Below are positions 8,909 to 56,579 of a stretch of DNA of 56,579 nucleotides, piece by piece. This DNA is from Opitutaceae bacterium. Its GTDB lineage: Bacteria; Verrucomicrobiota; Verrucomicrobiia; Opitutales; Opitutaceae. The notes under the pieces are model-generated. The model saw nothing but the letters and a program-made list of their open reading frames with translations, was not told where the DNA came from and did not search any database. Within the stretch, counting starts at the first letter, position 1. Every line of letters begins with the position of its first letter. The DNA is taken from positions 1 to 56,579 of the forward strand of contig SYGN01000336.1 of assembly GCA_005799525.1 (NCBI GenBank), given 5' to 3'. Made by a program: the position numbers and the translations under genes.

Positions 8909-11188
8909 ATGCTCCTCTCTCCTCCCGTCGCGCAACGCGCCCTCACCCAAAAAGATCTCTCCGCCGACCTCGTCGTCGTCGGCGGCGGTCTCGCCGGCAC
9001 CTGCTGCGCCATCACCGCCGCCCGCGCCGGTCTAAAGGTCATCCTCGTGCAGGACCGCCCCGTCCTCGGCGGCAACGCTTCCAGCGAGGTCCGTCTCTGG
9101 GTGCTCGGCGCCACTTCCCATCTCGGTAACAACAACCGCTGGGCCCGCGAGGGCGGCGTCATCGACGAATTCCTCCTCGAAAACCAATACCGCAACCCCG
9201 AGGGCAACCCGCTCATCTGGGACACCATTCTCCTCGAGAAAACCATCGCGGAGAAAAACCTCACGCTCCTCCTCAACACCGCCGTCCACGATCTCGAAAA
9301 ATCCGCCCCCGACACCATCCGCGCCGTCAGCGCCTTCAATTCCCAAAACTCCACCGCCTACGAACTCACCGCGCCGCTCTTCGTCGACGCCTCCGGCGAC
9401 GGTATCGTCGGCTTCCTCGCCGGCGCCGCGTTCCGCATCGGCGCCGAGGCTGCCGCCGAATTCGATGAAGCTTTCGCTCCCGCAGTCGCCAACTCAGAAC
9501 TGCTCGGCCACTCGATTTATTTTTACTCCAAAGACACCGGCCGCCCGGTGAAATTCACCGCACCCAGCTACGCGCTCCAAGACATCACACAGGTCCCGCG
9601 CTACCGCGATTTCAACGCCGCCGAGTTCGGCTGCCGCCTCTGGTGGATCGAATATGGCGGCCTGCGCGACACCGTGCACGATACCGAAGAGATCAAGTGG
9701 GAGCTCTGGAGGGTCGCCTACGGCGTATGGAACTACATCAAGAACTCCGGCAAATTCCCCGAGGCCGCCAATCTCACCTTGGAGTGGGTCGGCACCATTC
9801 CCGGTAAACGCGAGAGCCGCCGCTTCGAAGGCGACGCGATGGTTTCGCAGCGCGACCTCATCGAACAGCGTCCGCAACCCGACGCCGTTTCCTTTGGCGG
9901 TTGGTCCATCGACCTCCACCCGCCTGCCGGCGTCTACAGCGAAAAGCCCGGTTGCCAACAATGGCACGCCAAAGGCGTTTTCCCGATTCCGTATCGCAGC
10001 CTCTATTCGCGGAACATCTCCAATCTTTTCCTCGCCGGACGCATCACGAGCGCGACGCACATCGCCTTCGGCTCCACGCGCGTCATGGCAACCTGCGCCC
10101 ACAGCGGCCAGGCCGTCGGCCTCGCAGCCGCGCTCTGCCGCCGCGACGGTCTCGCCCCGCGCGATCTCGTCAACCCAGCGCGCATGGCGGAACTGCAACG
10201 CCGCCTCATCCGTGCCGGCCAATTTATCCCCGAGGTCGCACTCCGTGATAACGCCGACCTCGCCGCCCGCGCGACCGTCACCGCTTCATCTACCTACCAA
10301 CTCTCCGAACTGCCCGCCGGTCCCGACCGCCTCCCGCTCACCGACGCTTGGGCCATGCTGTTCCCCGTGCCCCCCGGCCCGATGCCTGCCGTCACGTTCA
10401 CGCTCGACGTCGCGACCGCCACCGAACTCATCGCCGAACTCCGCGTCAGCTCGAAGCTCAACAACCACACGCCCGACGTCACCCTAGCCACGCTCCGCGT
10501 CGCGCTCACCGCCGGCGCCGCGCAGGCCGTCACGTTCAAATTCCCTACGTCGATCGACGCCCCGCGGTACGCCTTCGTGTGCCTCGCCGCCAATCCGGCG
10601 ATCACCGCGCACCTCAGTGATCAACGCCTCACCGGCGTCCTCTCGGTCACCCAAAAATTCAACCGCGCCGTCGCCAAATCCCCGCGCCAAGAGCCACCGC
10701 CCGGCACCGGCATCGAGAGCTTCGAGTTCTGGATTCCCCAGCGCCGCCCCGGCGGGAAAAATTTCGCACTCCGCGTCGAGCCCCCGCTCGCGCTCTTCGC
10801 TCCGGAAAACCTCCGCAACGGTTTCAGCCGTCCCACCAACCAGCCCAACGTCTGGCTCGCCGCGCTCACCGACACAGCGCCCACCCTCACGCTCGAGTGG
10901 CCCGAGCCCGTCGAGCTCTCGCGCCTCGAATTCGACCTCGACGCGGACTTCGACCACCCGCTTGAAACCGTGCTGATGTTAAACCCCGAGACGGTTGCAC
11001 CGTTCTGCGTGCCCGCCCTCCGCGTCCTCGACGACACCGGCCGCCTGGTCGGCGAGCTCCGCGACCAACATCTCAGCCAGGCCGCGCTCACGCTCGCCGC
11101 GCCGCTGCGCACGCGTCGCCTGACCGTCCAACTCACCCGCCCCCCCAGCGGCGCCCCCGCCGCACTCTTCCGCATCTCCGCCTACTGA
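8909..11188 (+). CDS. Large FAD-dependent oxidoreductase (PF12831 type) with C-terminal beta domain
   Basis: The 759-residue product has an early dinucleotide-binding motif (VVVGGGLAGTCCAITAARAG, residues about 25-45) followed by VLGGNASSEVR, the FAD_oxidored signature. GDGIVGFLAGAAFRIGAEA and PYRSLYSRNISNLFLAGRIT belong to the second nucleotide-binding portion. From about residue 480 the chain becomes beta-rich and resembles a discoidin or sandwich module. There is no clear signal peptide. Such enzymes are common in verrucomicrobial polysaccharide loci, but their substrates are mostly unknown; oxidation of a sugar or sugar acid is a reasonable guess. A related protein is encoded at 42330. 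The ATG at 8909 follows a pyrimidine-rich leader. Confidence 0.88.
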   Translation: MLLSPPVAQRALTQKDLSADLVVVGGGLAGTCCAITAARAGLKVILVQDRPVLGGNASSEVRLWVLGATSHLGNNNRWAREGGVIDEFLLENQYRNPEGNPLIWDTILLEKTIAEKNLTLLLNTAVHDLEKSAPDTIRAVSAFNSQNSTAYELTAPLFVDASGDGIVGFLAGAAFRIGAEAAAEFDEAFAPAVANSELLGHSIYFYSKDTGRPVKFTAPSYALQDITQVPRYRDFNAAEFGCRLWWIEYGGLRDTVHDTEEIKWELWRVAYGVWNYIKNSGKFPEAANLTLEWVGTIPGKRESRRFEGDAMVSQRDLIEQRPQPDAVSFGGWSIDLHPPAGVYSEKPGCQQWHAKGVFPIPYRSLYSRNISNLFLAGRITSATHIAFGSTRVMATCAHSGQAVGLAAALCRRDGLAPRDLVNPARMAELQRRLIRAGQFIPEVALRDNADLAARATVTASSTYQLSELPAGPDRLPLTDAWAMLFPVPPGPMPAVTFTLDVATATELIAELRVSSKLNNHTPDVTLATLRVALTAGAAQAVTFKFPTSIDAPRYAFVCLAANPAITAHLSDQRLTGVLSVTQKFNRAVAKSPRQEPPPGTGIESFEFWIPQRRPGGKNFALRVEPPLALFAPENLRNGFSRPTNQPNVWLAALTDTAPTLTLEWPEPVELSRLEFDLDADFDHPLETVLMLNPETVAPFCVPALRVLDDTGRLVGELRDQHLSQAALTLAAPLRTRRLTVQLTRPPSGAPAALFRISAY

Positions 11189-45365: not shown

Positions 45366-46784
45366 TCAGCATCGCGGCCGATGCGGCGCCAAAAACTGCC
45401 CCTTCTGCGGCAGATTCGTAAACCGTCCATCGGCGTAGATCGCCGTGCCGCGCACATAGGTGTGCGTCACGCGGGCCCGGCTCTTTTCTCCCACATACGC
45501 ACTGATCCGATGCCGCGTCCAGAGGTCCTCCGCCTGGATTGTTCGCACCTTGGTATACTCGATGAGCGAAAAATCTGCATCCCGCCCCAACGCAATCTGC
45601 CCCTTGCGATCGTCGATCTGGAAACGTCGCGCGACATTGCGCGCCATCACTGCCGCCAACACGGGCAGGTCTTGAGCCGCCGTCTTTTCGCATTCGGAAA
45701 TCAACAGCTCAAAACCGTGCTGGATGCCCCCGATGCCACCCCAGACGGCAAACATGTTCGCCGAATCTTTCATCTCCGGCCGCGCCGGCGAGTGATCCGA
45801 CCCGACCGTCTGGATGCGCCCGGCTCGCAGCTCCGCCCACAACGCCTTGCGCCGCTTTTCATCGCGCAACGGTGGCGCACACTTCGCGAGCGGCCCGAGC
45901 CGCGCGACGTCCTTATCGTTGAAGAGCAAATAATGCGGGCACGTTTCCACCGTTACATCCACGCGCTGCAACCGCGCCTCGGTGATGAGTGCGATGCCTT
46001 CCGGGCTGCTCACATTCACAATATGAAGCGCACATTGCGTCTCGCCCGCGATTTCCAACGCCGCGCAAATCGCCTCAAGTTCCACCGCGACCGGACGCGA
46101 GTCGAGCCACGCGCGCGCATCGGAGCGCCCTGCCGTTTTGATCTTATCGGTGAGCGCCGCAACCATCGCATCATCCTCGGCGTGCACCGCCACGGGCAAA
46201 CCGACTTTGGCCGCCCGCTTCATGCCTTCCCGCAGCGTCTTCGCTTCCACATGCGGGAAGCTCGCGATCCCGCTGTCGCACATAAACGCCTTCAGCCCCA
46301 CCGCACCCGCGTCCCGCAGGCCGGCGATCTTGTCGAGATTCCCCGGGGTCAATCCGCCCCACAACGCGAAGTCGGTGCAAGACTTCTCCTCCGCAATCCC
46401 CCGCTTTTCGCGCAACCCCGCCGCATCGAGCACCGGCGGCTCCGAGCTGGACGGCATATCAAAAAACATCGTCCCGCCGCCCGCCGCGAGCGCCGCCGAG
46501 CCCGTTGCGATCCCCTCCCAGTCGGCACGACCAGGCTGGTTGAAATGCACGTGCGCATCAAGGATGCCCGGAAACACGTAGCGCCCCTCCGCATTTAGCT
46601 CCGCGTCCGTGGCGTCCGTGACGCTGGGGGCCAGCCGGACGATCTTGCCGCGCACGATGCCGATCTCGACCGCCAGCACGCCCTCCGGCGTCACGACGCG
46701 CCCCCCGCGCACGATGAGATCGAGCCGTTCGGGCTCGTGAACAGTCTTGCCGTTTTCCCTGACAATCGGACCAGTGCGTTTCAT
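45366..46784 (-). CDS. allB: Allantoinase
   Basis: The 472-residue product is an intact amidohydrolase-superfamily enzyme. DLIVRGGRVVTPEGVLAVEIG opens the composite domain. DAHVHFNQPGRADWEG holds the HxH metal site, GAVGLKAFMCDSG the carbamylated lysine, LPVAVHAEDD and CALHIVNVSS the metal histidines, and TVGSDHSPA the catalytic aspartate. The spacing and the DFALWGGLTPGNL motif favour allantoinase over dihydropyrimidinase. It opens the hydantoin ring of allantoin to allantoate. The start overlaps (ATGA) the stop of an allantoate-amidohydrolase remnant, and a xanthine dehydrogenase remnant follows, so it may be the last survivor of its pathway at this site. Confidence 0.87.
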   Translation of the reverse strand: MKRTGPIVRENGKTVHEPERLDLIVRGGRVVTPEGVLAVEIGIVRGKIVRLAPSVTDATDAELNAEGRYVFPGILDAHVHFNQPGRADWEGIATGSAALAAGGGTMFFDMPSSSEPPVLDAAGLREKRGIAEEKSCTDFALWGGLTPGNLDKIAGLRDAGAVGLKAFMCDSGIASFPHVEAKTLREGMKRAAKVGLPVAVHAEDDAMVAALTDKIKTAGRSDARAWLDSRPVAVELEAICAALEIAGETQCALHIVNVSSPEGIALITEARLQRVDVTVETCPHYLLFNDKDVARLGPLAKCAPPLRDEKRRKALWAELRAGRIQTVGSDHSPARPEMKDSANMFAVWGGIGGIQHGFELLISECEKTAAQDLPVLAAVMARNVARRFQIDDRKGQIALGRDADFSLIEYTKVRTIQAEDLWTRHRISAYVGEKSRARVTHTYVRGTAIYADGRFTNLPQKGQFLAPHRPRC

Positions 46785-47169
46785 GAGGCGTGTTGCTGGG
46801 CCATTCTTTCAAGAAAGTCCACTATCACGCGCAAAGCGATTTTGAGGTTCGCCGGCGAGGCAGATGCGTCCGGGTGGTGACTCAGCTCATCCCGACACCG
46901 CGCAAACCACATCGCGACCGGGTCAACGCCGACATCACCACCCCGACATGCCCCGCGCCACTCACCAGCGAGAGTCTGCGCCCCTGCACCGCCTGGACGC
47001 CGCGCTCGAGCCGCGCCGTCAACTCCCGTGAACACTCCACCGCATTATTGTCCTGCGTGCGCTGCCACACCACCGTGAGCCCGCGCATAGCGCGGAGGAA
47101 TGGGCTGGTGATTTCGAGACCGCCGATGGTCAGTGCTTTCAGGCCGGGAGCGAACGCCGGCCCACTCAC
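46781..47169 (-). pseudogene. C-terminal remnant of allantoate amidohydrolase (M20 family), frameshifted
   Basis: The minus-strand frame gives GLTVVWQRTQDNNAVECSRELTARLE and LSLVSGAGHVGVVMSAL, then shifts near 46930. It continues VDPVAMWFARCRDELSHHPDAS and LKIALRVIVDFLERMAQQHAS, with a TGA overlapping the allB start. 'SGAGHD...MS...P.AM.F.RC....SHHPDE' is the C-terminal catalytic block of AllC-type carbamoyl/allantoate hydrolases; here the metal-site aspartate of GAGHD is already V. The N-terminal metal-binding domain is absent. The four-base overlap preserves the old operon order allC-allB. Confidence 0.72.
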
Positions 47170-47438
47170 CGAGACCAGCCAAGCAGAGAGAAATGCGGGC
47201 GCACCTCCTGGTCGGTCTCCGCAACGGTGGAGAATCTCGCCAAAAAAATACCCATCACGGTCTCACCTTCAACCTCCATCTGCATCCAATCGCCTACGGT
47301 GCCCGCGCCGGCAGTAACGACCGCACGCCGACCACGCACTCGTGCGATGTTCGCGAACTCGTCATCAAGCCGAAAATTGGCGACACTAAACAAATTGCTG
47401 TTCAGCTTGCGCAAATTTGCTTGCCCCTCAGCGGCCAT
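47166..47438 (-). pseudogene. Unrecognised coding-like fragment
   Basis: A 90-residue minus-strand frame (NSNLFSVANFRLDDEFANIARVRGRRAVVT, AGTVGDWMQMEVEGETVMGI, FLARFSTVAETDQEVRPHFS) has natural composition and overlaps the start of the allantoate-amidohydrolase remnant. I do not recognise the family. It may be part of a gene fused to the remnant by deletion. The stretch 47439-47620 upstream, before the tRNA genes, shows no gene. Confidence 0.3.
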
Positions 47439-47620
47439 CGTCCGTAGAACCGACTGCTTATGCGGTGGTGAAGCAGGCTCCGCACCGCTGTTCTTTCACA
47501 GACTGTGTTTTTCTTTCCCATGTTCGGCCCGAGTGATCGCTGGAGTGTCGCCCTACCGCAGAAACGTGGCGTAGAAATCCGCCACATTAACTTCCACAAC
47601 TTGATCATAAAAAATAGTAG

Positions 47621-47695
47621 GCCGGCGTAGCTCAATGGTAGAGCACCTGTTTTGTAAACAGGCGGTTGCGGGTTCGAATCCCATCGCCGGCTCCA
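47621..47695 (+). tRNA. tRNA-Thr (anticodon TGT)
   Basis: The acceptor stem GCCGGCG (47621-47627) pairs with CGCCGGC (47685-47691). The D arm contains AGCTCAATGGTAGAGC, the anticodon stem CCTGT/ACAGG encloses TTTGTAA (anticodon TGT), and the T arm has the GGTTCGAATCC loop. CCA is encoded at 47693-47695. Confidence 0.97.
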
Positions 47696-47747
47696 GTTTT
47701 CAACCGTTGCCCTGACTGTGTTATGCCACTTCCCTGCGATTTTTTTC

Positions 47748-47821
47748 TGCCCGATTGTGTAATGGTAGCACAAACGACTCTGACTCGTTTTGTCTAGGTT
47801 CGACTCCTAGTCGGGCAGCCA
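47748..47821 (+). tRNA. tRNA-Gln (anticodon CTG)
   Basis: The acceptor stem TGCCCGA (47748-47754) pairs with TCGGGCA (47811-47817). The anticodon stem AACGA/TCGTT encloses CTCTGAC (anticodon CTG), and the T loop is GGTTCGACTCC. CCA is encoded at 47819-47821. It lies 52 bases after tRNA-Thr, probably co-transcribed. Confidence 0.96.
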
Positions 47822-47919
47822 ATTTTCCTCTTATAAAAAAATAAAAAGTGCGTTGCGTTACGTGATTCCTCCTCTGATTTCACCCAAAAAATATTCGCCG
47901 CCGATCTCCACAAAGTAAG

Positions 47920-47950
47920 TTGACAGCCAAGTTTGGATGACACCTATTTT
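47920..47950 (+). promoter_or_regulatory. Candidate sigma-70-type promoter for the Ton operon
   Basis: TTGACA at 47920-47925 is a consensus -35; TATTTT at 47945-47950 is a plausible -10, although the 19-base spacing is slightly long. It would give a leader of about 250 bases before exbB at 48206. The region 47822-48205 (384 bases) is AT-richer than its surroundings and holds no recognised gene; an 80-codon frame in it has no family character. Confidence 0.4.
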
Positions 47951-48205
47951 GCCCCTTTCCAATTTTTTCACCCGAAATCACCTCAGCGACATGCTGAATT
48001 TCCAAATACCCCTCTCCTGCGCATCGTGGCCCGCCGGGCAAATCCGAACAGATAAACTCATTCCCGCAGCGCTGGGTGGAGTTGAGTCGGTCGCAAAAAT
48101 ATTAATGAGCAATTCACTCGCACGCGCTTACTCCCATCGTACTGACCCACAAATCTTTCTCTCAATCCTCACTGAATAATCCACTAAGAAAACTTCCCAC
48201 TTCAT

Positions 48206-48895
48206 ATGATAAACCTAGTCGAAATCCCCCTGGCGATCCTGCTCATGAATCCCGACGGTACTGAAATGTCCATGATGGACCTCTTTCACGCCGGCAAAGA
48301 AATCATGTGGCCAATCATATTATTGTCGTTCGTCGGCATCACCGTCGTGGTTGAGCGACTCCTCTTCATCATCCGTGAGAACGGCACCCGCGACGCGGAA
48401 GCGGTCGAGAAGATGCTGGGATTGGTCGAGAAGCGCGACATCGATGGAGCGCTCGCGATCGGCAAGAAGAGTAAAGATTTTATCGCCCGCATCTTGGTTT
48501 ACACGCTGAGCAACAAGGAATATTCCATGTCCAATGCCTTTGTCCGTGCTTCCGGACAAGAGCTCGGGCGCTTTAGTCAAGGCATGGCAACTCTGGACAC
48601 CGTCATCACAGCGGCACCTATGTTGGGTCTTCTCGGAACGGTTACGGGTATGATGAAGACGTTCGGCGCCCTCGGCGGCGGCAATCTCGCCGCCGCGTCC
48701 GGTGCAATCACCGGTGGCGTGGCCGAAGCGTTGATAGCCACGGCAGCCGGTCTCTTGATCGCCATTATGGCACTGCTCCCATTCAACTATCTCATCGCCC
48801 GCACCGAGCAGGCGAAACAAGAGGTCAGTGACGCCTCCCACGCTCTCGAAATCCTCGTCAAGAAGTCCGAGACCAATGCTCCGTTCGGTCGCTGA
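48206..48895 (+). CDS. exbB: ExbB/TolQ-family proton channel subunit
   Basis: The 229-residue inner-membrane protein has a first helix at about 32-55 (IMWPIILLSFVGITVVVERLLFII), a cytoplasmic loop, and two further helices in LDTVITAAPMLGLLGTVTGMMKTF and GGVAEALIATAAGLLIAIMALLPFNYL. The MotA/TolQ/ExbB signature APMLGLLGTVTGM and the conserved polar residues TA..G in the third helix are present. With ExbD it forms the proton channel that energises TonB and hence the receptors in this window. It is first in a seven-gene operon. ATG at 48206 lacks a Shine-Dalgarno sequence. Confidence 0.95.
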   Translation: MINLVEIPLAILLMNPDGTEMSMMDLFHAGKEIMWPIILLSFVGITVVVERLLFIIRENGTRDAEAVEKMLGLVEKRDIDGALAIGKKSKDFIARILVYTLSNKEYSMSNAFVRASGQELGRFSQGMATLDTVITAAPMLGLLGTVTGMMKTFGALGGGNLAAASGAITGGVAEALIATAAGLLIAIMALLPFNYLIARTEQAKQEVSDASHALEILVKKSETNAPFGR

Positions 48896-48944
48896 GTTCC
48901 GCACCCCGTTCTCGGTAAATTAGCCACTCCAGTCACCCTCCACC

Positions 48945-49373
48945 ATGTCCGGATCATCAGGCGGTAATAGCGGCGGCAAGAAAAAGGCGCGCATTGAGAT
49001 CATCCCTCTCATCGACGTCATTTTTTTTCTGCTCGCCACTTTCGTGTTGTTCACTCTTTCGCTGAACACACCCCAAGGTGTGCCCGTAGTTCTCCCGCAG
49101 GCGGAGAGTGGAGTCGAACGTGAAACCGCCGGCACGGCCACGGTCTCAGTCACCGAGCAAGGCAGCCTCGCTTGGGATAAAGAATTCGTCGACCTTAACG
49201 AATTTCTTAACCGTCTGAAGGCCTATTACGTTTCGAACCCAGAGGGACGCATCCTAATCAATGGCGATGATAACGCACCCTTCAATCAGGCCATTTACGT
49301 CTTCGACGAAGCCCGCAAGGCTGGGTTTAAAAAGATATTTATCGAGACGCAGGTTCGTGCGATTAACCGCTAA
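48945..49373 (+). CDS. exbD: ExbD/TolR-family protein, copy 1
   Basis: The 142-residue product has a short basic cytoplasmic start (MSGSSGGNSGGKKKARIEI), one helix with the essential aspartate in IPLIDVIFFLLATFVLFTLSLN, and a periplasmic domain (GRILINGDDNAPFNQAIYVFDEARKAGF) of ExbD/TolR type. It is 49 bases after exbB. The first 12 bases and a 47-base block spanning the aspartate helix are identical to the second exbD copy, showing a tandem duplication. Confidence 0.95.
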   Translation: MSGSSGGNSGGKKKARIEIIPLIDVIFFLLATFVLFTLSLNTPQGVPVVLPQAESGVERETAGTATVSVTEQGSLAWDKEFVDLNEFLNRLKAYYVSNPEGRILINGDDNAPFNQAIYVFDEARKAGFKKIFIETQVRAINR

Positions 49374-49409
49374 CCCTCCGGGTAGAATCAATCCCCCCAC
49401 TTTACTTCT

Positions 49410-49859
49410 ATGTCCGGATCAAGCTCACACGTAGATGATGGCAAGAAAAAGGCGCGCATTGAGATCATCCCTCTCATCGACGTCATCTTCTTTCTTTTGG
49501 CGACGTTCGTATTATTCACCCTCTCGCTGAATAAAATCGCTTCGATCCCGGTCGATCTCCCCGTCGCGAACCCAAACAGCCAGCCCAATCCCAATGATCC
49601 CACCGTCTACCTGCAGGTGTCCGACTCGGGAAATTGTTATTGGAAGCAGGGCGTGGGTTCGGCCCCAGAATTACTTACGGTGGCCGAAATTGCGCCGCGA
49701 CTAGCCGACTACAAGAACCGAGAAGCCAATCCACGCGTGCTCGTGCAGGGCGACAACAAAGCCCGCTTTGGGGCTGCCGTCCTTGCTCTTGATGAGATTC
49801 GCAAGGCTGGAATCGCCCAAGTATCCGTTCAAACCACCGTCCAGCCCACGGGTAAATAA
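49410..49859 (+). CDS. exbD: ExbD/TolR-family protein, copy 2
   Basis: The 149-residue paralog of the preceding gene has the same KKKARIEIIPLIDVIFFLLA helix and aspartate, but a diverged periplasmic domain (NPNDPTVYLQVSDSGNCYWK, NPRVLVQGDNKARFGAAVLALDEIRKAGI). Two different ExbD subunits in one operon occur in several TonB systems and may form a heterodimer. The periplasmic difference suggests distinct partners. It lies 36 bases after copy 1 and 17 before tonB. Confidence 0.94.
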   Translation: MSGSSSHVDDGKKKARIEIIPLIDVIFFLLATFVLFTLSLNKIASIPVDLPVANPNSQPNPNDPTVYLQVSDSGNCYWKQGVGSAPELLTVAEIAPRLADYKNREANPRVLVQGDNKARFGAAVLALDEIRKAGIAQVSVQTTVQPTGK

Positions 49860-49876
49860 CCTCCGGAACTTTTCCC

Positions 49877-50533
49877 ATGCGTAGCGACCTCATCCTAGGA
49901 TTTTCTCTGTCAGCGTTGATCCACGGGGGAATCTTTTTCGGCGAAATGCTGATCAAGTTCGAACCAAAGCCCAAGCCCGTCACCCAAGAGGCCCCCAAGG
50001 TCCTGCTGATTGAAATGCCCAAACTCGAACCCGATGAGCCGGAAAAAGTCGAGGTCACGGATGAACCGATCAAGCCGATCGACTTAGCGCCCCCCATGCT
50101 CACGGACGTGCCCCAAATCGTGACCGATACATCATTTGTCCAGAAGGTCCAACCCCCGCCACCCGAAGGAATGCGCCCGGCCGTTGGCGTCCTGACGATT
50201 CCCGGGGACCGCGATACGTCCCAATTCCGAGGTGCAGCCGTGTTTGATCCGTCCATGCTCGACAATCAACCGGTCCCCCGCTTGCAAGGTCGCCCGACCT
50301 ACCCCTTCGAGATGCGCCGCGCAGGTATCGCGGGAGAGGTCGTCGTCGACTTCATCGTCGATGCCAACGGCGATGTCCAAAATGCGTTTGCCGTCAAAAT
50401 GTCGCAGCGCGAATTTGAATCTGCAGCCGTGCAAGCCGTGTCCAAATGGAAATTCAAGCCCGGACGTAAAGGCGGCCGGAACGTCAACACGCACATGCAG
50501 GTGCCCATCGTATTCACCCTTAACGAGGATTAA
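49877..50533 (+). CDS. tonB: TonB energy transducer
   Basis: The 218-residue product has an N-terminal anchor helix with the S-x3-H signature (FSLSALIHGGIFFGEML), a proline/acid-rich spacer (EPKPKPVTQEAPK, KLEPDEPEKVEV), and a C-terminal TonB domain (PRLQGRPTYPFEMRRAGIAG, VVDFIVDANGDVQNA, SAAVQAVSKWKFKPGRKGG). The YP motif and terminal strands for the TonB-box interaction are intact. It delivers ExbB/ExbD energy to the outer-membrane receptors. It begins 17 bases after exbD copy 2. Confidence 0.95.
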   Translation: MRSDLILGFSLSALIHGGIFFGEMLIKFEPKPKPVTQEAPKVLLIEMPKLEPDEPEKVEVTDEPIKPIDLAPPMLTDVPQIVTDTSFVQKVQPPPPEGMRPAVGVLTIPGDRDTSQFRGAAVFDPSMLDNQPVPRLQGRPTYPFEMRRAGIAGEVVVDFIVDANGDVQNAFAVKMSQREFESAAVQAVSKWKFKPGRKGGRNVNTHMQVPIVFTLNED

Positions 50534-50541
50534 TCCATCCC

Positions 50542-51966
50542 GTGACTGCCTCATTCTTTCCCTCCCTCCCTCCTCAAGCTCGCCCGGCGAAGATTGCTCT
50601 GACGCTCGCACTCGCACTCGCGGTGTTCACGTCGGGAGCGTCGTCCGCCCAGACACCGCCGCCAGCGCAACCTCCGAGCCTGAGCGAAAAGGTCAGCGCT
50701 GAGATCCAAAAGCTCAAACCGCTCCAAGACGCAAAAAATTGGGACGGAATGATCGCTCTCCTTGATGCGGTGGTTCCTACGGTGGGCCCCGCTAGCTATG
50801 ATCTAGCCTTCATTCAGGATATGCGCGCCCGGCTCTTGGCCGGCAAAGATCAATGGGCTAAATCCGCGGAGACGATGGAGATCGCCCTCCAACTTTCGGA
50901 TACCAGTTCCCCGAAATTCTTCGATAAAAACAAGACGCTGGAGATGGTCTTGTTTCTAGCCCAGATCAACTATCAGGAAGCCACCACCGTCAAAGTGCCT
51001 GAGACGCAGCGTAAGTATCTCGCGAAAGCTTCCGAGTTCATCAAACGCTGGCTGACAACTGCCCCCAAGCCTACACCCGAAATCATGTCGTTTTATGCGA
51101 CGATTTTGCTTCAACAGGCTGTCGCTGACCCCAAAAACGTCAATCAAGAACTCCTCCAGCTTGCGCGGGCTGAGATCGATAAACTTTTCCAATCCTCGAT
51201 TCGTCCGAAGGAAAATCTTTACTTCCTCCTCTTGGCTGTCCTCCAACAAGGATCCGATGTTGCCCGCTCCGCTGAAGTATTGGAGCTGATCGTCAAACAG
51301 TTTCCGACGAAGAAAGACTATTGGCCCCAGCTCTGGGCAAGCTATCTGAACCTCGCCTCGGACAAGAATAATGACGAGTCGACATCGCGGTCCCATTTCA
51401 TTCGCGCAATCAACACCGTTGAACGAGCCCAAGCGCAGGGCTTCATGAATACGCCCAAAGATAACTTCAATTTGGTCAGCCTCTACATTCAAGTTAACCA
51501 ATTCGGTAAGGCGACTGACCTCCTGTATGCGGGCCTCAAGAGCGGCGGTATCGAAAATGATCCAAAAAACTGGATCTATCTCGGTTATTACTACCTACAA
51601 ATTAACCGAAATCTCCAAGCACTGGTGGTGCTGAAAGAAGCAACGAAGCTCTTCCCCACAAACGGCCAGTTCGACCTCCAGATCGGTGAAATCTACCGGC
51701 AAGATGAGAAGATGAAGGACGCGCGTCGGCATTACCGCGAAGCCCTGCGCAAAGGTGGCCTCGAACGGCCCTATGCCGTGCACACCCTCTTGGCCAACGT
51801 TTCCTACGAGGTTGAGGACTTCGACGAGGCACTCAAGTCGATCGTCCAGGCCGAGGCACTCAGTGATCCGAAAAAAGAAAAAGACGCCTACCTGGCTCGT
51901 CTAAAAGATGCAATTTTGGCAGCCATCGCTGATCGTGACAGTTCAAAATCGCCCAAAAGCCTCTGA
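50542..51966 (+). CDS. Periplasmic TPR-repeat protein of the Ton operon
   Basis: Start GTG at 50542, nine bases after tonB; 474 residues. A signal peptide (KIALTLALALAVFTSGASSAQTPP) is followed by helical repeats: LKPLQDAKNWDGMIALLDAV, QLWASYLNLASDKNNDESTSR, NWIYLGYYYLQINRNLQALVVLKEAT and TNGQFDLQIGEIYRQDEKMKDARRHYREAL are TPR-like. It is probably a periplasmic scaffold binding TonB or receptors, comparable in position to TPR proteins such as TtpC in Vibrio Ton systems, without implying homology. The exact partner is unknown. Confidence 0.88.
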   Translation: MTASFFPSLPPQARPAKIALTLALALAVFTSGASSAQTPPPAQPPSLSEKVSAEIQKLKPLQDAKNWDGMIALLDAVVPTVGPASYDLAFIQDMRARLLAGKDQWAKSAETMEIALQLSDTSSPKFFDKNKTLEMVLFLAQINYQEATTVKVPETQRKYLAKASEFIKRWLTTAPKPTPEIMSFYATILLQQAVADPKNVNQELLQLARAEIDKLFQSSIRPKENLYFLLLAVLQQGSDVARSAEVLELIVKQFPTKKDYWPQLWASYLNLASDKNNDESTSRSHFIRAINTVERAQAQGFMNTPKDNFNLVSLYIQVNQFGKATDLLYAGLKSGGIENDPKNWIYLGYYYLQINRNLQALVVLKEATKLFPTNGQFDLQIGEIYRQDEKMKDARRHYREALRKGGLERPYAVHTLLANVSYEVEDFDEALKSIVQAEALSDPKKEKDAYLARLKDAILAAIADRDSSKSPKSL

Positions 51967-51998
51967 GTACGTCCACCCCCTCTCTCTTAAATTCTAAA

Positions 51999-52556
51999 AT
52001 GAAGAAGAAATATCTATATGTTTTCCCACCATTGATCGGACTTGTGATCTTTGGTACGGTTTACTGGCAATACAGCTCCGGATATGAAGCTCGTTTGGCT
52101 GAAGGTGAACGCAAGGCGCGCGCCGTCATCGAAGCCAAGCTCGCCGAGGATGCCCGCGGCCGGGAAAAGGCCGTGCGAGACGCTCTCGCCTCCCAAGAGA
52201 AGCGCAAAATCGATAAGGCCGCTAACGAAAAAAAAGATCTCGCGGACAAAGAGATGCGCGAAAAAGCCATGCAGGCAAAATTTCGGGCTCAGCGCGAAAC
52301 CGACAAACTCGAGCAACAAGCCAAACGCCTCAAAAAGGAGATTGACGAAGAAAAGAAGGAAATTGAAAAAATCGAAGCCGATAAGAAACGCTCGGTTGAG
52401 GAGGTCGCCTTCCAACGTGAATACGTGAAAAAAGCCGAGGCTAATACCCGCAGTCTCGCCATCGTTCTGGATCGGATCGCCGCCGCCGATGTGGCCGCTG
52501 AAGCCGCCGCCAAAGCTGCTGCTGCTGCCGCTGCTGCCGCTGCCGTCAAAAAATAA
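51999..52556 (+). CDS. Membrane-anchored coiled-coil protein 1 of the Ton operon
   Basis: The 185-residue product has an N-terminal helix (YLYVFPPLIGLVIFGTVYWQY), then an almost uninterrupted Lys/Glu/Ala-rich coiled coil (residues about 30-150, for example EKKDLADKEMREKAMQAKF and LKKEIDEEKKEIEKIEADKK) and an alanine-rich tail (AAKAAAAAAAAAAVKK). No known family. The orientation would place the rod in the periplasm. It resembles the next gene in architecture, length and its MKK-[YW] start, so the two look like diverged duplicates. Function unknown; a spacer or bracing role around the Ton complex is a guess. Confidence 0.85.
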   Translation: MKKKYLYVFPPLIGLVIFGTVYWQYSSGYEARLAEGERKARAVIEAKLAEDARGREKAVRDALASQEKRKIDKAANEKKDLADKEMREKAMQAKFRAQRETDKLEQQAKRLKKEIDEEKKEIEKIEADKKRSVEEVAFQREYVKKAEANTRSLAIVLDRIAAADVAAEAAAKAAAAAAAAAAVKK

Positions 52557-52573
52557 CCCAATAAATTCTCCCC

Positions 52574-53116
52574 ATGAAAAAATGGATGTATATCATTTTC
52601 CCAGGCGCCCTGCTCGGGGCCTTTCTCATCTTTTTCTTCAGTCACCAAACGGAGACTGAAGCTAAAGAAAAATCTCGTTTGGCTACCGCCCAAAAAATCG
52701 AAGCCGACAAAGCTAAAATCAAGGCGGACAACGAACGGAAGGCGTCGCTCGACGCCAAGGAGCGCCAAGCCGCCCGCGAGAAAGAGGATGCGGACAAAGT
52801 CGCAGCGAAGCTGGCCAAACTCGCAGCGGCGGACAAGGAAGTGAAGGACGCAACCGACAAGTCGCTGGCTGAGGGTGATAAAGCTGCGAAAGAAGTCTCC
52901 AAGCTCGACATCGATCTCGACACTCTCCGGAAGGCGAAGGACAAGGCGAACCGCGAAGCCTTTGAACTCGCGAAGCAGGTTGAGCTCGCAAAAGTTGCCA
53001 AACGCAACGCGGAGTTCGAAATTCAACGTACCACCGAGATGATTTCCACCCGGGCGGCGAACAGTTCATTGACGCGCATGCCGCCTCCCCCACCCCTTCC
53101 TCCAATCGCCAAGTAA
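52574..53116 (+). CDS. Membrane-anchored coiled-coil protein 2 of the Ton operon
   Basis: The 180-residue product starts MKKWMYIIFPGALLGAFLIFFFSHQ (membrane anchor). It continues as charged coiled coil (AKIKADNERKASLDAKERQAA, KDKANREAFELAKQVELAKV) and ends in a proline cluster (LTRMPPPPPLPPIAK). It lies 17 bases after the previous gene and is followed by a strong terminator, so it closes the operon. The proline tail could bind a partner or cross a gap. No recognised domain. Confidence 0.85.
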   Translation: MKKWMYIIFPGALLGAFLIFFFSHQTETEAKEKSRLATAQKIEADKAKIKADNERKASLDAKERQAAREKEDADKVAAKLAKLAAADKEVKDATDKSLAEGDKAAKEVSKLDIDLDTLRKAKDKANREAFELAKQVELAKVAKRNAEFEIQRTTEMISTRAANSSLTRMPPPPPLPPIAK

Positions 53117-53143
53117 TTGGTCCACGAAAAAAATCTAGTGACG

Positions 53144-53176
53144 AAAGACCCCGAGCGCGAGCTAGGGGTCTTTTTT
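53144..53176 (+). terminator. Rho-independent terminator of the Ton operon
   Basis: AAAGACCCC (53144-53152) pairs with GGGGTCTTT (53165-53173) around a 12-base loop, followed by a T-run (TTTTTT, 53171-53176). It lies 28 bases after the last operon gene. The following 53177-53465 (289 bases) contains no recognised gene. Confidence 0.9.
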
Positions 53177-53465
53177 ATGCACATCCTGGCGGTGCAACGT
53201 AATCAACCGGGCGGGGGGATCCCCTGAACGCAACCGCTCGCCCGGGGTTACCCCCTTTCCGGCATGCGTGAGTGGGAGTAAAGTCACGGGGCAGGAAAAT
53301 TACGAAGCGCGGTGATCGATGCCGAAACGAAACGAGATCGACGCGGACGACGAATCCTGCTGTCGCATCCAATTGAGCCGCTGCTGATTTCAATGACTGA
53401 ACTCGGTGATGTGGGATCGCACAGCAAGGCCAGGCAGAGTTGCCGGTACATTTTGGCCGAGCTAC

Positions 53466-54410
53466 TTAGGCCAGGGACTTGAGTCCCGCTTCAATTTCTC
53501 GGCGCCGCGCCTCGAGGAACGGAGGCAGCGAAAGTTTTTCCCCAAGTTGATCGAGGGACTCGTCCGCCGTAAACCCGGGTTCATCAGTCGCCAGCTCAAA
53601 CAATATCCCGTTCGGCTCGCGAAAATAGAGACTCTGAAAATAGAACCGATTGACCGGACCACTCGAGCGCATCCCAAGTTCAACGAGCCGCTCCGCCCAC
53701 GCGGCGTAGTCTTTCACAGTCGTGTGAAACGCGACGTGGTGCACGCTGCCCGCACCTTGCCGTGCACGCGGCATCTCCGGCTCCACGCCGACGTGGAGCT
53801 CCGCCGCTGCGCCACCCTCACCCATTTCGTAAACGTGCACCGTGGCCCCCGCAGTGATCGAGTAATCCCGCACGCGCCGCATCTTCAGCACTTTCGTCAG
53901 TACCGCATCCGTCGGTGCCAACACAGGCACACTGAGCGTGATGGGCCCAAGCCCAAGGATTTGATGTTCAGCCGGCACCGGACTCTTCGCCCACGGGTGC
54001 GCCGGTTCGCGAGGCGCACGATCCACCACCAGCATGAACCGCTGCCCCTCGAAATCTTCAAAATCCAGCGTTCCGCGATCATCGTGCTGGACCACCTCGC
54101 CGTGACTCACCTTCAGCTCGCGAAATCGTGCCGCCCACCACGTGAGACTGGACTCGCTCGCGACGCGCAGCCCGGTGCGCGCGACACTGTTCGTGCCGCG
54201 GCGCTCCGGTGGCACCGGCCAGCCGAAAAATGTCAGATCCGTCCCCGGCGCAGCAATTCCGTCGGCGTAAAACAAATGATAGGCCGACACGTCGTCCTGA
54301 TTCACGCTTTTCTTGACCAAGCGCATGCCGAGCGTTCTCGTATAAAACTCATGGTTGGCCGAGGCGTTCGCTGTGACCGCTGTGAGATGGTGGATTCCTG
54401 CGAGTTGCAT
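53466..54410 (-). CDS. VOC-family ring-cleaving dioxygenase-like protein
   Basis: The 314-residue product begins [40 protein letters not shown], the opening of LinE/MhqO/MhqA-type proteins annotated as ring-cleaving dioxygenases. Two glyoxalase-fold halves are visible, with metal-ligand candidates in [16 protein letters not shown] and [12 protein letters not shown]. Members bind Fe(II) and cleave hydroquinone-type rings or confer quinone/electrophile resistance. It stands alone between the Ton operon and a divergent DUF1080 gene, so no pathway context helps. Confidence 0.87.
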
Positions 54411-54515
54411 TTAACCCAAACTGCACGCCAACTCCGTTTCGTCCAGTCGCGCCAATTCTAGCTTTGCGATTCAGCAGGGATTCCCCGCAATCTCCCGTCC
54501 TTTCCCACCCAAAAT

Positions 54516-55310
54516 ATGAATCATCTCCGCCACCTCTTCCGCCGGTTCCCCAAGGCTGTCTTAGTCGTCGTGCTCTGTTCATCGCTCCCCACCGCGTTCG
54601 CCCAGATCGGACTCGGTGCCAAGGCCCCGGCCGACGCCGAAGTCCTGATCGACGGCAGCCGCAAGCTGCTCGATGACAAATGGACTTACTGGACGGGCCC
54701 CCGCTTTGCCTCGGCGATGCCGATCAAATGGAAGATCGTCGATGATCCCGTTGACCGCGGCACGGTTCTCCAGACCGACGATCCCGCTGCGGCTGGCGGT
54801 AAATACGGCTCCGCCGACATCGTGACCAAGAAAGCCTACCGCGACTTCCGGCTGCACATTGAATTCCTCATCACCAAAACCGGCGGCAACAGTGGCGTTT
54901 ATCTCCAGAACCGTTACGAGATTCAAATCTGTGACAGCGACGCCACCAAGCACGGGATGGGCGCCGTCATTAACGAGACGCCGTCACCGTATTTCGCTTA
55001 CAAGGGTCTCGGCCAGTGGAACTCCTACGATATCCAATTCCGCGCCGCCCGCTTTAAGGACGGGAAGCGCACCGAGCCCGCCATGGTCACACTCTATTTC
55101 AACGGCATCAAAGTCCATAGCAGCCAGACCATCAACCAAGTCTGGGGCGGCGCCAACTCCGGCCTCGATGGCGGTAACGACGGCGGCAAGGGCATCACCG
55201 ACGTCCCCGGCGGGCTGAAGCTCCAATGCGAGGGCCACGACGTCCGCTATCGTAATGCGTGGATCAAGGAACTCGACCTCGTCCGCCCCAACACCGATTT
55301 CAAGAACTGA
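54516..55310 (+). CDS. Secreted DUF1080 (3-keto-disaccharide hydrolase-like) protein
   Basis: The 264-residue product has a signal peptide (AVLVVVLCSSLPTAFAQ) and a single DUF1080 sandwich: YRDFRLHIEFLITKTGGNSGVYLQNRYEIQI, GAVINETPSPYFAYKGLGQWNSYDIQFRA, MVTLYFNGIKVH, PGGLKLQCEGHDVRYRNAWIKEL. The family has been described as acting on 3-keto-glycosides and is abundant in planctomycetes and verrucomicrobia. Residue pattern GNSGVYLQ and Q-E..G..V.YRN are intact. No operon partner is visible; the DTW gene follows after 31 bases. Confidence 0.9.
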   Translation: MNHLRHLFRRFPKAVLVVVLCSSLPTAFAQIGLGAKAPADAEVLIDGSRKLLDDKWTYWTGPRFASAMPIKWKIVDDPVDRGTVLQTDDPAAAGGKYGSADIVTKKAYRDFRLHIEFLITKTGGNSGVYLQNRYEIQICDSDATKHGMGAVINETPSPYFAYKGLGQWNSYDIQFRAARFKDGKRTEPAMVTLYFNGIKVHSSQTINQVWGGANSGLDGGNDGGKGITDVPGGLKLQCEGHDVRYRNAWIKELDLVRPNTDFKN

Positions 55311-55341
55311 TGCTCTCCTCTGGTCGGCGTTCACGGTCTGC

Positions 55342-56166
55342 ATGAGCCGCGAGACCTGTTATCGGTGTTTTTGGCCGCAGGCTCACTGCTGGTGTCCTTC
55401 GATCCAACCAATGGAAACCCGCACCAAGATCGTATTCTTGATGCACCCGAAGGAATTCAAGACAGAGAAAGCCAACACCGGTCGGCTCACCCACCTTTGC
55501 CTTCCGCAGAGCGTAATTTACATGGGCATAGCCTTTGACGATCACGAAGAAGTCCAGGCCCTGATCACCGATCCGCGCAACGTCACCGTCCTCCTCTACC
55601 CCGGTGTCGGGGCTCGCAACCTCTCCACGGGAGAATTGACCCCCGCCGAACTCGGCGAACGCCGCCTCGTGGTCCTGCTGCTCGACTCCACGTGGGGCGG
55701 TGCACGAAAAATGCTCCGCCTCAGCCCCAGTCTGCAACGGCTGCCACGCATCATGTTCACGCCCACCGGACGCAGCCGCTACGTGATCAAGCAACAGCCG
55801 CACGCCGGTTGTCTCTCCACCCTCGAAGCGACCCACGAACTGCTCCTCGCCCTCGAACGTTCGGGCCTCGATCACTATGCGCTTCCCACGCAGCTCCTCG
55901 GCATTTTTGAGCGGATGCAGCTATTACAAATTCGTTGCGCGGCCGATTTTGCTCGCGGCGGATATCGTCGCCAGCCCTACACCGATCCGGGGGAACGCAC
56001 CGCCTCACAAGGCCGCAGCGGCCAACGTCGCAGTGCGTTTCTCCGTCGCACCGGCATCGACGGCAGCGCGACACCGCAACCAACCCACGAGCCTGATCAG
56101 GATTCGATCCCCAACAGCCCGACCTCAAACACCAGCGTCGCATTGGGCGGGATCGCTCCGGGATAA
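55342..56166 (+). CDS. DTW-domain protein (tRNA-uridine aminocarboxypropyltransferase-like)
   Basis: I chose ATG at 55342 ([18 protein letters not shown]), which starts with the zinc-binding cysteine cluster C..C......C.C. The DTW motif appears as [13 protein letters not shown], preceded by [12 protein letters not shown] and followed by [23 protein letters not shown]. TapT-type members transfer the aminocarboxypropyl group of S-adenosylmethionine to U47 of tRNA. The last ~65 residues ([19 protein letters not shown] onwards) are low-complexity and run through an FKBP remnant on the other strand, so the native stop may have been nearer 55990; 274 residues as written. Confidence 0.87.
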
Positions 56167-56246
56167 CCTTCGCGTCCGTAACCGAGCTCCGGCGGGATCG
56201 TCATCTTCACCTTGTCGCCCACTTTCAGGAAGCGCCCCGGGCGTCG
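56097..56246 (-). pseudogene. C-terminal remnant of an FKBP-type peptidyl-prolyl isomerase
   Basis: The minus strand reads [30 protein letters not shown] and [15 protein letters not shown] with TGA at 56097-56099. This is the C-terminal FKBP pattern (KVG.K....IP.ELGYG.......IP.N..L.F.V.LL). The N-terminal half is missing: upstream of about 56246 the sequence changes to the end of an insertion element. It overlaps the 3' end of the DTW gene on the other strand. Probably truncated by the insertion. Confidence 0.8.
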
Positions 56247-56262
56247 TTAAAAGATAGCTGGG

Positions 56263-56327
56263 TGGATGGTGGTTCCGCTGCCAGTAAAGGCAGTGGGAAT
56301 TCGAAAACCCAGAGAAACCACCATCCA
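56263..56327 (+). promoter_or_regulatory. Long hairpin ending on the transposase start codon
   Basis: TGGATGGTGGTT (56263-56274) pairs perfectly over 12 bases with AACCACCATCCA (56316-56327). The inner region has a second hairpin, CTGCC/GGCAG around AGTAAA, and GGG/CCC complementarity. The last paired base is the A of the transposase ATG. Read-through transcripts entering the element would fold this and hide the start, as in some other insertion sequences that restrain transposase translation. Confidence 0.55.
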
Positions 56328-56579
56328 TGAAAATCAATAACCAAACACCAGCGTCGGCGCAAGCCGTGTCGGCGGAGAATCGAGAGTCGTTTATGATCCT
56401 GCTGCGCGACAGCCTACGGGCGACCGCGGAGCGAATTTTGGAAGACGAAGTTAACGCGCTGTGTGGCGAGAGCCATCGGCCCGAAGTCGGAGCCCAGTAC
56501 CGTCGGGCCGGCAGCGAGAGCGGGACCTGCTACGCTGAGGGGCGCCGCGAAACGATTCTGCGTCCGCGGGTGCGCAAAC
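56327..56579 (+). CDS. IS256/mutator-type transposase, N-terminal part
   Basis: From ATG 56327 an open frame runs to the window end (84 codons). It reads ESFMILLRDSLRATAERILEDEVNALCG, RRAGSESGTCYAEGRRETILRPRVRK. A helical start, then R-x-G-S...G...R...ILRPRVR, corresponds to the segment preceding the DDE domain in IS256-family transposases. The catalytic domain is outside the window. The family call rests on this short N-terminal part only. Confidence 0.65.
   Translation, partial: MKINNQTPASAQAVSAENRESFMILLRDSLRATAERILEDEVNALCGESHRPEVGAQYRRAGSESGTCYAEGRRETILRPRVRK

Follow-up and report, generated by a model that had tools for sequence, protein, structure and literature searches.

A seven-gene Ton operon of the Opitutaceae that ends in two paralogous rod proteins, with a TPR protein probably akin to TtpD

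It is not settled how Ton motors transmit force through the periplasm; for the Ttp proteins, which are required in Vibrio, there is no established mechanism. The question arises again at a locus of an Opitutaceae bacterium: on contig SYGN01000336.1 (GenBank assembly GCA_005799525.1; 56,579 nucleotides, analysed whole and called the window below), the genes exbB, exbD, exbD and tonB run on into genes for a tetratricopeptide repeat (TPR) protein and two long helical proteins, here named rod1 and rod2. What do these last three proteins add to a Ton motor? Most Opitutaceae carry this seven-gene operon ending in a matched pair of rods, which are almost never found apart from the motor genes. Very probably the rods are structural components dedicated to the Ton machine. 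The fuller reading, to which we assign a probability of roughly 0.55, is that the operon encodes a Ton energizer with an accessory module, made up of a TtpD-like periplasmic TPR adaptor and two inner-membrane-anchored helical rods; the balance also tips slightly toward the rods filling the place of TtpB and TtpC.

The operon has the order exbB-exbD1-exbD2-tonB-TPR-rod1-rod2 on the + strand, with short gaps and a strong terminator at its 3' end, and its open reading frames (ORFs) lie exactly where the initial annotation, made from the sequence alone, had placed them:

48206-48895, + strand: exbB, 229 amino acids (aa), Pfam MotA_ExbB (PF01618, E 5.4e-25), a short form lacking the N-terminal extension seen in TtpC
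48945-49373, + strand: exbD1, Pfam ExbD (PF02472, E 1.4e-26)
49410-49859, + strand: exbD2, Pfam ExbD (PF02472, E 2.9e-20)
49877-50533, + strand: tonB, 218 aa, Pfam TonB_C (PF03544, E 6.8e-20), with a proline-rich linker
50542-51966, + strand: TPR protein, probably TtpD-like, 474 aa, GTG start, signal-peptide-like N-terminus, Pfam TPR_2 (E 8.8e-11)
51999-52556, + strand: rod1, with an N-terminal membrane helix, a charged helix of about 135 residues and an Ala/Lys-rich tail
52574-53116, + strand: rod2, a paralogue of rod1 with a Pro-rich tail and the conserved C-terminal motif VELxxxxKRNAExEIQR
about 53143-53177, + strand: intrinsic terminator, a hairpin with a T-run (-22.7 kcal/mol, z -4.49, equalled by none of 200 shuffles)

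The gaps between tonB and the TPR gene, the TPR gene and rod1, and rod1 and rod2 are 8, 32 and 17 bases, in line with the initial annotation. The terminator was identified by folding against shuffles, the simple terminator scan not having listed this hairpin, and a simple promoter scan gave no promoter-like site on the + strand from 46500 to 56579. PF01618, PF02472 (twice) and PF03544 are encoded together, all above their cut-offs, which places the operon among Ton energy-transduction systems. The membrane helix of TonB reads S-x3-H in translation, which we take to be the known TonB motif, and the TPR protein appears from its N-terminus to be secreted. By eye, a stretch of about 47 bases at the start of the membrane helix is identical in exbD1 (48975-49021) and exbD2 (49440-49486), while the periplasmic parts differ; the shared stretch looks like the product of gene conversion.

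Neither rod matches a Pfam or NCBIfam model at E ≤0.001, in agreement with the initial annotation, and membership of a known family was rejected, as profile searches of Pfam, NCBIfam and the PDB gave merely weak coiled-coil matches. Rods of this kind are not described in the literature at the level of titles and the openings of abstracts, a check outside which most of the subscription literature falls, and they are not mentioned in the relevant passages of PMC12905483 and PMC12505986. The ratio of nonsynonymous to synonymous substitution rates (dN/dS) of the rods is 0.06-0.11 in the five of six comparisons for which it was computable, some of them near saturation. Because this ratio is low and the rods are conserved across the Opitutaceae, we conclude that they are real genes, and reject an origin as chance ORFs.

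A single-sequence search of 57 relatives found rod1 in 31 genomes (one match, L096 in G043, was judged to be due to chance and excluded from alignments and trees) and rod2 in 32. With a rod2 profile at E 1e-12, rod2 was present in 188 of 250 Opitutaceae genomes and in 40 of the 49 genera of the family; of the 165 genomes with completeness of 90% or more and contamination of no more than 5%, 133 carry it and 32 do not. Across 288 genomes of the phylum the profile matched in 39 at E 0.001. Twenty-five of these matches were strong, 24 of them in Opitutaceae and one (G055) in another family of the same order; the remaining 14 weak matches, outside both, were judged to be chance. A search for rod2 among plasmids gave no match. 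Two rod protein families, for which Pfam and NCBIfam hold no model, are thereby delimited and given names and boundaries. In G055 the rod operon (L092/L247) stands in a non-Opitutaceae genome whose congeners G208 and G273 gave no rod2 match, and horizontal transfer is possible. At two further loci (L162 and L210) the operon lies on short contigs of metagenome-assembled genomes (MAGs) titled Acidobacteria or Acidobacteriaceae; these contigs are probably misbinned.

One conserved rod2 peptide pattern, scanned over 84,980 species, gave 248 stretches, 119 of which encode relatives; the best 80 of the 119 were kept, a set that favors close relatives and overlaps the genomes of the 57-relative survey. 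All seven genes were found in order on one strand at 64 of these 80 loci (at L161, L170 and L210 one gene is split into two ORFs), at the other 16 a contig end, about 130 bases away at most, truncates the operon, and none contradicts the seven-gene order. The proposal that the rods form a conserved extension of the Ton operon is borne out by these counts. Median gaps are 6 bases between tonB and the TPR gene, 21 between the TPR gene and rod1, and 21 between rod1 and rod2; two exbD genes are present in all 64 complete operons, and ExbB measures 218-269 aa in the 61 operons for which its length was taken. Two of the loci with the operon, L178 and L203, belong to Cephaloticoccus strains that are named isolates; at L178 the contig cuts the operon at its 5' end.

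The 38 regions drawn from the relatives include 30 complete operons, in two of which exbB is partly cut by a contig end. The other eight comprise four contig-cut operons, a rod2 piece, the chance match L096, and two that form a divergent second rod pair. L103 amounts to 41 residues of rod2 at the end of a contig; L099, L100 and L102 (rod1), L101 and a short piece at L084 (rod2), being short or divergent, were omitted from profiles or trees. Whole seven-gene operons occur in four copies in G013 (L083-L086) and in two in G012 (L087-L088), and these duplications keep both rods, which counts toward the rods being part of the Ton system. The L084 copy has an extra rod2 piece downstream (9686-10009), and the G010 operon (L246:3568-5232) carries three tandem rods, two of a divergent rod1 type and one rod2.

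The two rods are related to each other over their length. Alignment of the rod1 and rod2 profiles with hhalign gave 99.4% (E 1.1e-21) over columns 1-160 and 1-161, and in a tree of 69 rows, the bootstrap of which had not fully settled, a branch supported at 100/100 splits 35 rod2 sequences from 32 rod1 sequences and the two extra rods of G010. The rods are end-to-end paralogues, and the simplest reading is that they arose by one duplication before the spread of the family, with both copies retained.

Rod1 is predicted by AlphaFold2 to be one helix spanning residues 5-184 (pLDDT 90.5), and from the predicted (rod1) or assumed (rod2) helix ends the rods are about 20-24 nm long, roughly the width of the periplasm. 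They are presumably anchored in the inner membrane, with the coil in the periplasm. The tails differ as originally described, with a median alanine fraction of 0.56 over the last 25 residues of rod1 (75 sequences) and at least three prolines in the last 15 residues of rod2 in 69 of 79 sequences. A helix of this length, with ends rich in Pro or in Ala and Lys to which a partner could bind, would also suit a tether from the Ton complex to the peptidoglycan or outer membrane, or a spacer between the membranes, sharing merely its regulation with the Ton genes. We consider such a role improbable, as Pfam finds no peptidoglycan-binding domain in the rods, and their linkage to, and duplication with, this one operon would be unexpected of a spacer with a general role.

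Charged residues make up about half of each coil (68 of 134 in rod1 and 63 of 134 in rod2). By the frequency of hydrophobic residues, a heptad period as strong was seen in 3 of 5000 shuffles for rod1 and 59 of 5000 for rod2; the global periodicity peak of rod2 was equalled by 202 of 500 shuffles, and on a hydrophobicity scale the rods peak at 3.50 and 3.52, yet within the range of shuffles. The signal comes mostly from the C-terminal half (residues 95-160) and is weak in the N-terminal half. By the first measure the periodicity speaks for a coil in rod1 and, less strongly, in rod2, but on the hydrophobicity scale for neither; the rods may be coiled coils, as originally described, rod1 more probably than rod2. 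The high charge and the weak N-terminal heptads would fit rods that transmit force themselves, as single alpha-helices or TolA-like transducers forming a second arm next to TonB, and E. coli TolA has a poly-alanine coiled-coil linker, according to the relevant passages of PMC12905483. We think this very improbable: Pfam and NCBIfam find no TonB or TolA C-terminal domain in the rods, and there is no conserved histidine in their membrane helix, where H, D, E, K or R occurs at residues 9-23 in 2 of 75 rod1 and 10 of 79 rod2 rows. A histidine-containing membrane motif of TonB/TolA transducers is named in the part of PMC12204202 that deals with them.

The lengths of the coils are nearly constant. 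Indel events per 100 columns number, in the coils, 0.01 in rod1 (one event in 74 sequences) and 0.00 in rod2 (none in 78), compared with 1.45 in the TPR protein (66 sequences), 1.16 in TonB (66), 0.81 in ExbD1 and 2.00 in ExbD2, at mean identities of 47, 48, 44 and 59% for rod1, rod2, TPR protein and TonB; the counts skip 25 aligned residues at each end, and the aligner could miss compensating gaps in such charged sequences. In the divergent set, rod1 of L095 has a seven-residue insertion offset by seven gap residues elsewhere, and L082 has one extra residue. Conservation of residues is uneven along the rods. Mean entropy is 1.55 and 1.60 bits in the membrane helices of the two rods versus 2.10 and 2.07 bits in coil residues 27-60, and the most conserved stretch of rod2 is residues 131-160 (1.10 bits), with a motif near residues 134-152 conserved at 90% or more. 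In the membrane helix a Tyr and a Phe are at least 90% conserved in both rods, as is a Pro in rod1; Pro10 of rod2 stands at 90% in one alignment and below 90% in another. Low entropy in the membrane helix and at residues 131-160 of rod2 points to specific contacts at both ends, and together with the two exbD genes of every complete operon it would suit regulators or assembly factors of the Ton complex, for example proteins that hold ExbB pentamers or the two ExbDs together, for which constant length would reflect the pairing register only. That the rods are such factors and not struts seems to us unlikely, though it is the strongest of the alternatives; the near-absence of indels along the entire coil exceeds what local contacts need.

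The favored reading, in which the rods belong to a TtpD-like accessory module, draws on the neighboring TPR gene. The TPR protein is predicted to be an alpha solenoid (pLDDT 89.9). TtpD belongs to the TonB2-type systems, for which we used as reference operons those on plasmids of Alteromonas macleodii and a Pseudoalteromonas, both with the gene order of the TonB2 operon; a plasmid search with the TtpB of G021 matched gammaproteobacterial loci, and one with Opitutales TtpB matched nothing. The profile of the TPR family scores 142.8 bits on the protein in the TtpD position of Pseudoalteromonas, 126 on the Alteromonas and 198.8 on the G021 counterpart; for the remaining ten TtpD-like proteins of the order it gives 30.6-91 bits. 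Alignment of the TPR family with TtpD by hhalign gave 99.9% (E 6.4e-36) over columns 41-441. At E 1e-10 the profile matched, in the 57 genomes, the rod operons, the G021 and G027 loci and one further place (G016, 42.4 bits). The matches listed in a PDB fold search with the TPR model were all TPR proteins or comparable helical repeats from other systems, so the search was uninformative. We consider it likely, although not proven, that the TPR protein is akin to TtpD of TonB2-type systems, a probable counterpart that the initial annotation had not foreseen.

Vibrio vulnificus needs TtpB2 (DUF3450, with a leucine zipper) and TtpD2 (TPR) to use siderophores through TonB2, as reported in the relevant part of PMC6957404, and DUF3450 appendages of unknown function are noted in a passage of PMC12505986. 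Relatives without rods, and other families of the order, have operons that resemble the TonB2 operon of V. vulnificus in build: they start with genes for a DUF3450 protein and an ExbB-like protein of about 460 aa, in many cases add a short ExbB, and continue with one or two ExbD genes, in most cases a TonB gene (not recognised at the loci of G016, G020 and G268), and then a TPR gene. The G021 locus carries a strong DUF3450 gene (E 1.6e-84), and the rod-less Opitutaceae G439, G426 and G027 have 7, 8 and 8 DUF3450 matches, which are expansions of such loci. A TtpB profile gave no match at E 0.001 in the ORFs of the 80 rod loci, as far as their sequence extends, a few of them beginning at or just before exbB; a TtpC profile matched there just the short ExbB ORFs and no TtpC, a protein of about 460 aa that includes a periplasmic extension; and 14 TtpB-type loci, among them L259, which is truncated ahead of its TPR gene, yielded no rod gene. 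DUF3450 is also rarer in genomes with rods, occurring in 34 of 188 rod-bearing versus 25 of 62 rod-less Opitutaceae genomes (Fisher p 0.0009, in a test that ignores shared ancestry and with three of the 34 having weak rod2 matches only); in a smaller sample of 37 family members the counts were 4 of 31 and 4 of 6 (p 0.013). In the five genomes examined with both (G018, G024, G028, G036 and G055), rods and DUF3450 stand at separate loci, and 37 rod-less genomes of the 250 have no DUF3450 either. The swap thus concerns the build of the operon and not the content of the genome.

From these comparisons a mechanism can be proposed in which rod1 and rod2 would sit in the inner membrane through their first helices and contact the ExbB-ExbD motor there, and would pair along helices of matching length. 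The pair could then brace the motor and the TPR adaptor across the periplasm and keep a fixed spacing for the adaptor and TonB, allowing force to arrive at the outer-membrane receptors. The rods would thereby take the part that TtpB and the TtpC extension play in TonB2-type systems. The conserved seven-gene order, the near-constant coil length, the likely kinship of the TPR protein with TtpD and the lower frequency of DUF3450 in rod-bearing genomes count for this reading. We advance only tentatively the further idea that, in a lineage, the TonB2-type coiled-coil module was swapped for unrelated duplicated rods that form a hetero-oligomeric, periplasm-spanning strut, a molecular ruler of the Ton system setting the working distance among the ExbBD motor, the TPR adaptor and the outer membrane.

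Several observations weigh against the favored reading. The interaction, localization and oligomeric state of the rods are all predicted from sequence. Comparison of the rods with TtpB and TtpC by hhalign gave only 8-16%, and thus no convincing homology; the best hmmsearch score of a rod, 24.5 bits for rod2 on Alteromonas TtpB (E 4.2e-8, 40 sequences), is discounted because it lies within the range of chance coiled-coil matches in the phylum sample. Repeats inflate the scores of the TPR profile, which in the PDB reach 60-175 bits on engineered consensus chains and up to 58.5 bits on natural TPR chains, and the hhalign figure for the TPR protein and TtpD stands without an unrelated TPR family as a profile-profile control. 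Besides the rods, ExbB too is low in indels (0.24 per 100 columns, at 69% identity), and the heptad signal of rod2 is weak. Rods and DUF3450 occur together in 34 of the 250 genomes, so replacement is not strict per genome and mutual exclusion at that level is rejected. Finally, one orphan rod pair without Ton genes is present in G004, a MAG with 6% contamination: a divergent pair on C944 (L245:254-796) and C905 (3931-4293), with about 2.2 kb upstream of the rod1-like gene on C944 free of recognised Pfam families and operon profiles, and then a dihydroxy-acid dehydratase gene. This is the sole exception seen to the Ton linkage, so the expectation that rods occur only beside Ton genes is correct for nearly all of the loci surveyed.

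The source genome (84% complete) has three TonB_C matches and at least 67 Plug-domain matches, the latter consistent with an operon that drives TonB-dependent receptors. It has four further ExbB-type loci, and after one of them a TonB_2/TonB_C protein is encoded; in the adjacent ORFs scanned at the other three there is no TonB, and the location of the third TonB_C match was not found. Because just one of these four loci has an adjacent TonB, the rod operon is probably, but not certainly, the main Ton energizer of this genome. Each of the nine genomes of the source genus gives 67 or more Plug matches and carries both rods, except that G005 shows just a contig-end fragment of rod2. The rods are also present with few Plug matches, two in G032 and in G055 and five in G009 (listed frames of 712 aa in G032 and 652 aa in G009), and absent from G020 and G021 with at least 67 each (listed frames of 1012-1044 aa in G021). 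These counts do not support a tie of the rods to receptor number, nor do they support the earlier suggestion that the rods are needed for the very large receptors of Opitutaceae, in a comparison of sizes that was not systematic and carries no statistical test. In G032 (L093) the rods are retained and strongly diverged.

If the proposed role is correct, Ton motors would have a second, unrelated solution standing beside a related TPR protein, and a TPR adaptor with a long coil would be a general need of such motors. In comparison with known systems, the operon shares the ExbB, ExbD and TonB domains of E. coli ExbB-ExbD-TonB and adds a second ExbD, the TPR protein and the two rods. Like the Proteobacteria TolA linker, the rods have a membrane helix and then a long, charged, Ala-rich helix; unlike TolA they have no C-terminal TolA/TonB domain, are two separate proteins, and lie beside tonB rather than tol-pal genes. 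The PVC-group loci with TPR, TolQ-like, paired TolR-like and vWA genes, as described in the relevant passages of PMC12204202, likewise have a TPR gene beside ExbB-type and two different ExbD-type genes, whereas the rod operon has a TonB_C transducer and rods, and Pfam finds no vWA domain in its seven proteins. The TonB2/TonB3 type of Vibrionaceae and Alteromonadales (TtpB/DUF3450-TtpC-ExbB-ExbD-TonB-TtpD) differs in having TtpB, where the rod operon has none and only a short ExbB; in the single exbD of the two reference operons, against two here; and in lacking the two membrane-anchored rods that the rod operon adds 3' of its TPR gene, without convincing kinship to TtpB or TtpC. In both types a TPR gene comes straight after the Ton core, the kinship of the TPR proteins probably extends over most of their length, and the operon encodes an element that forms, or in the rods may form, a coil.

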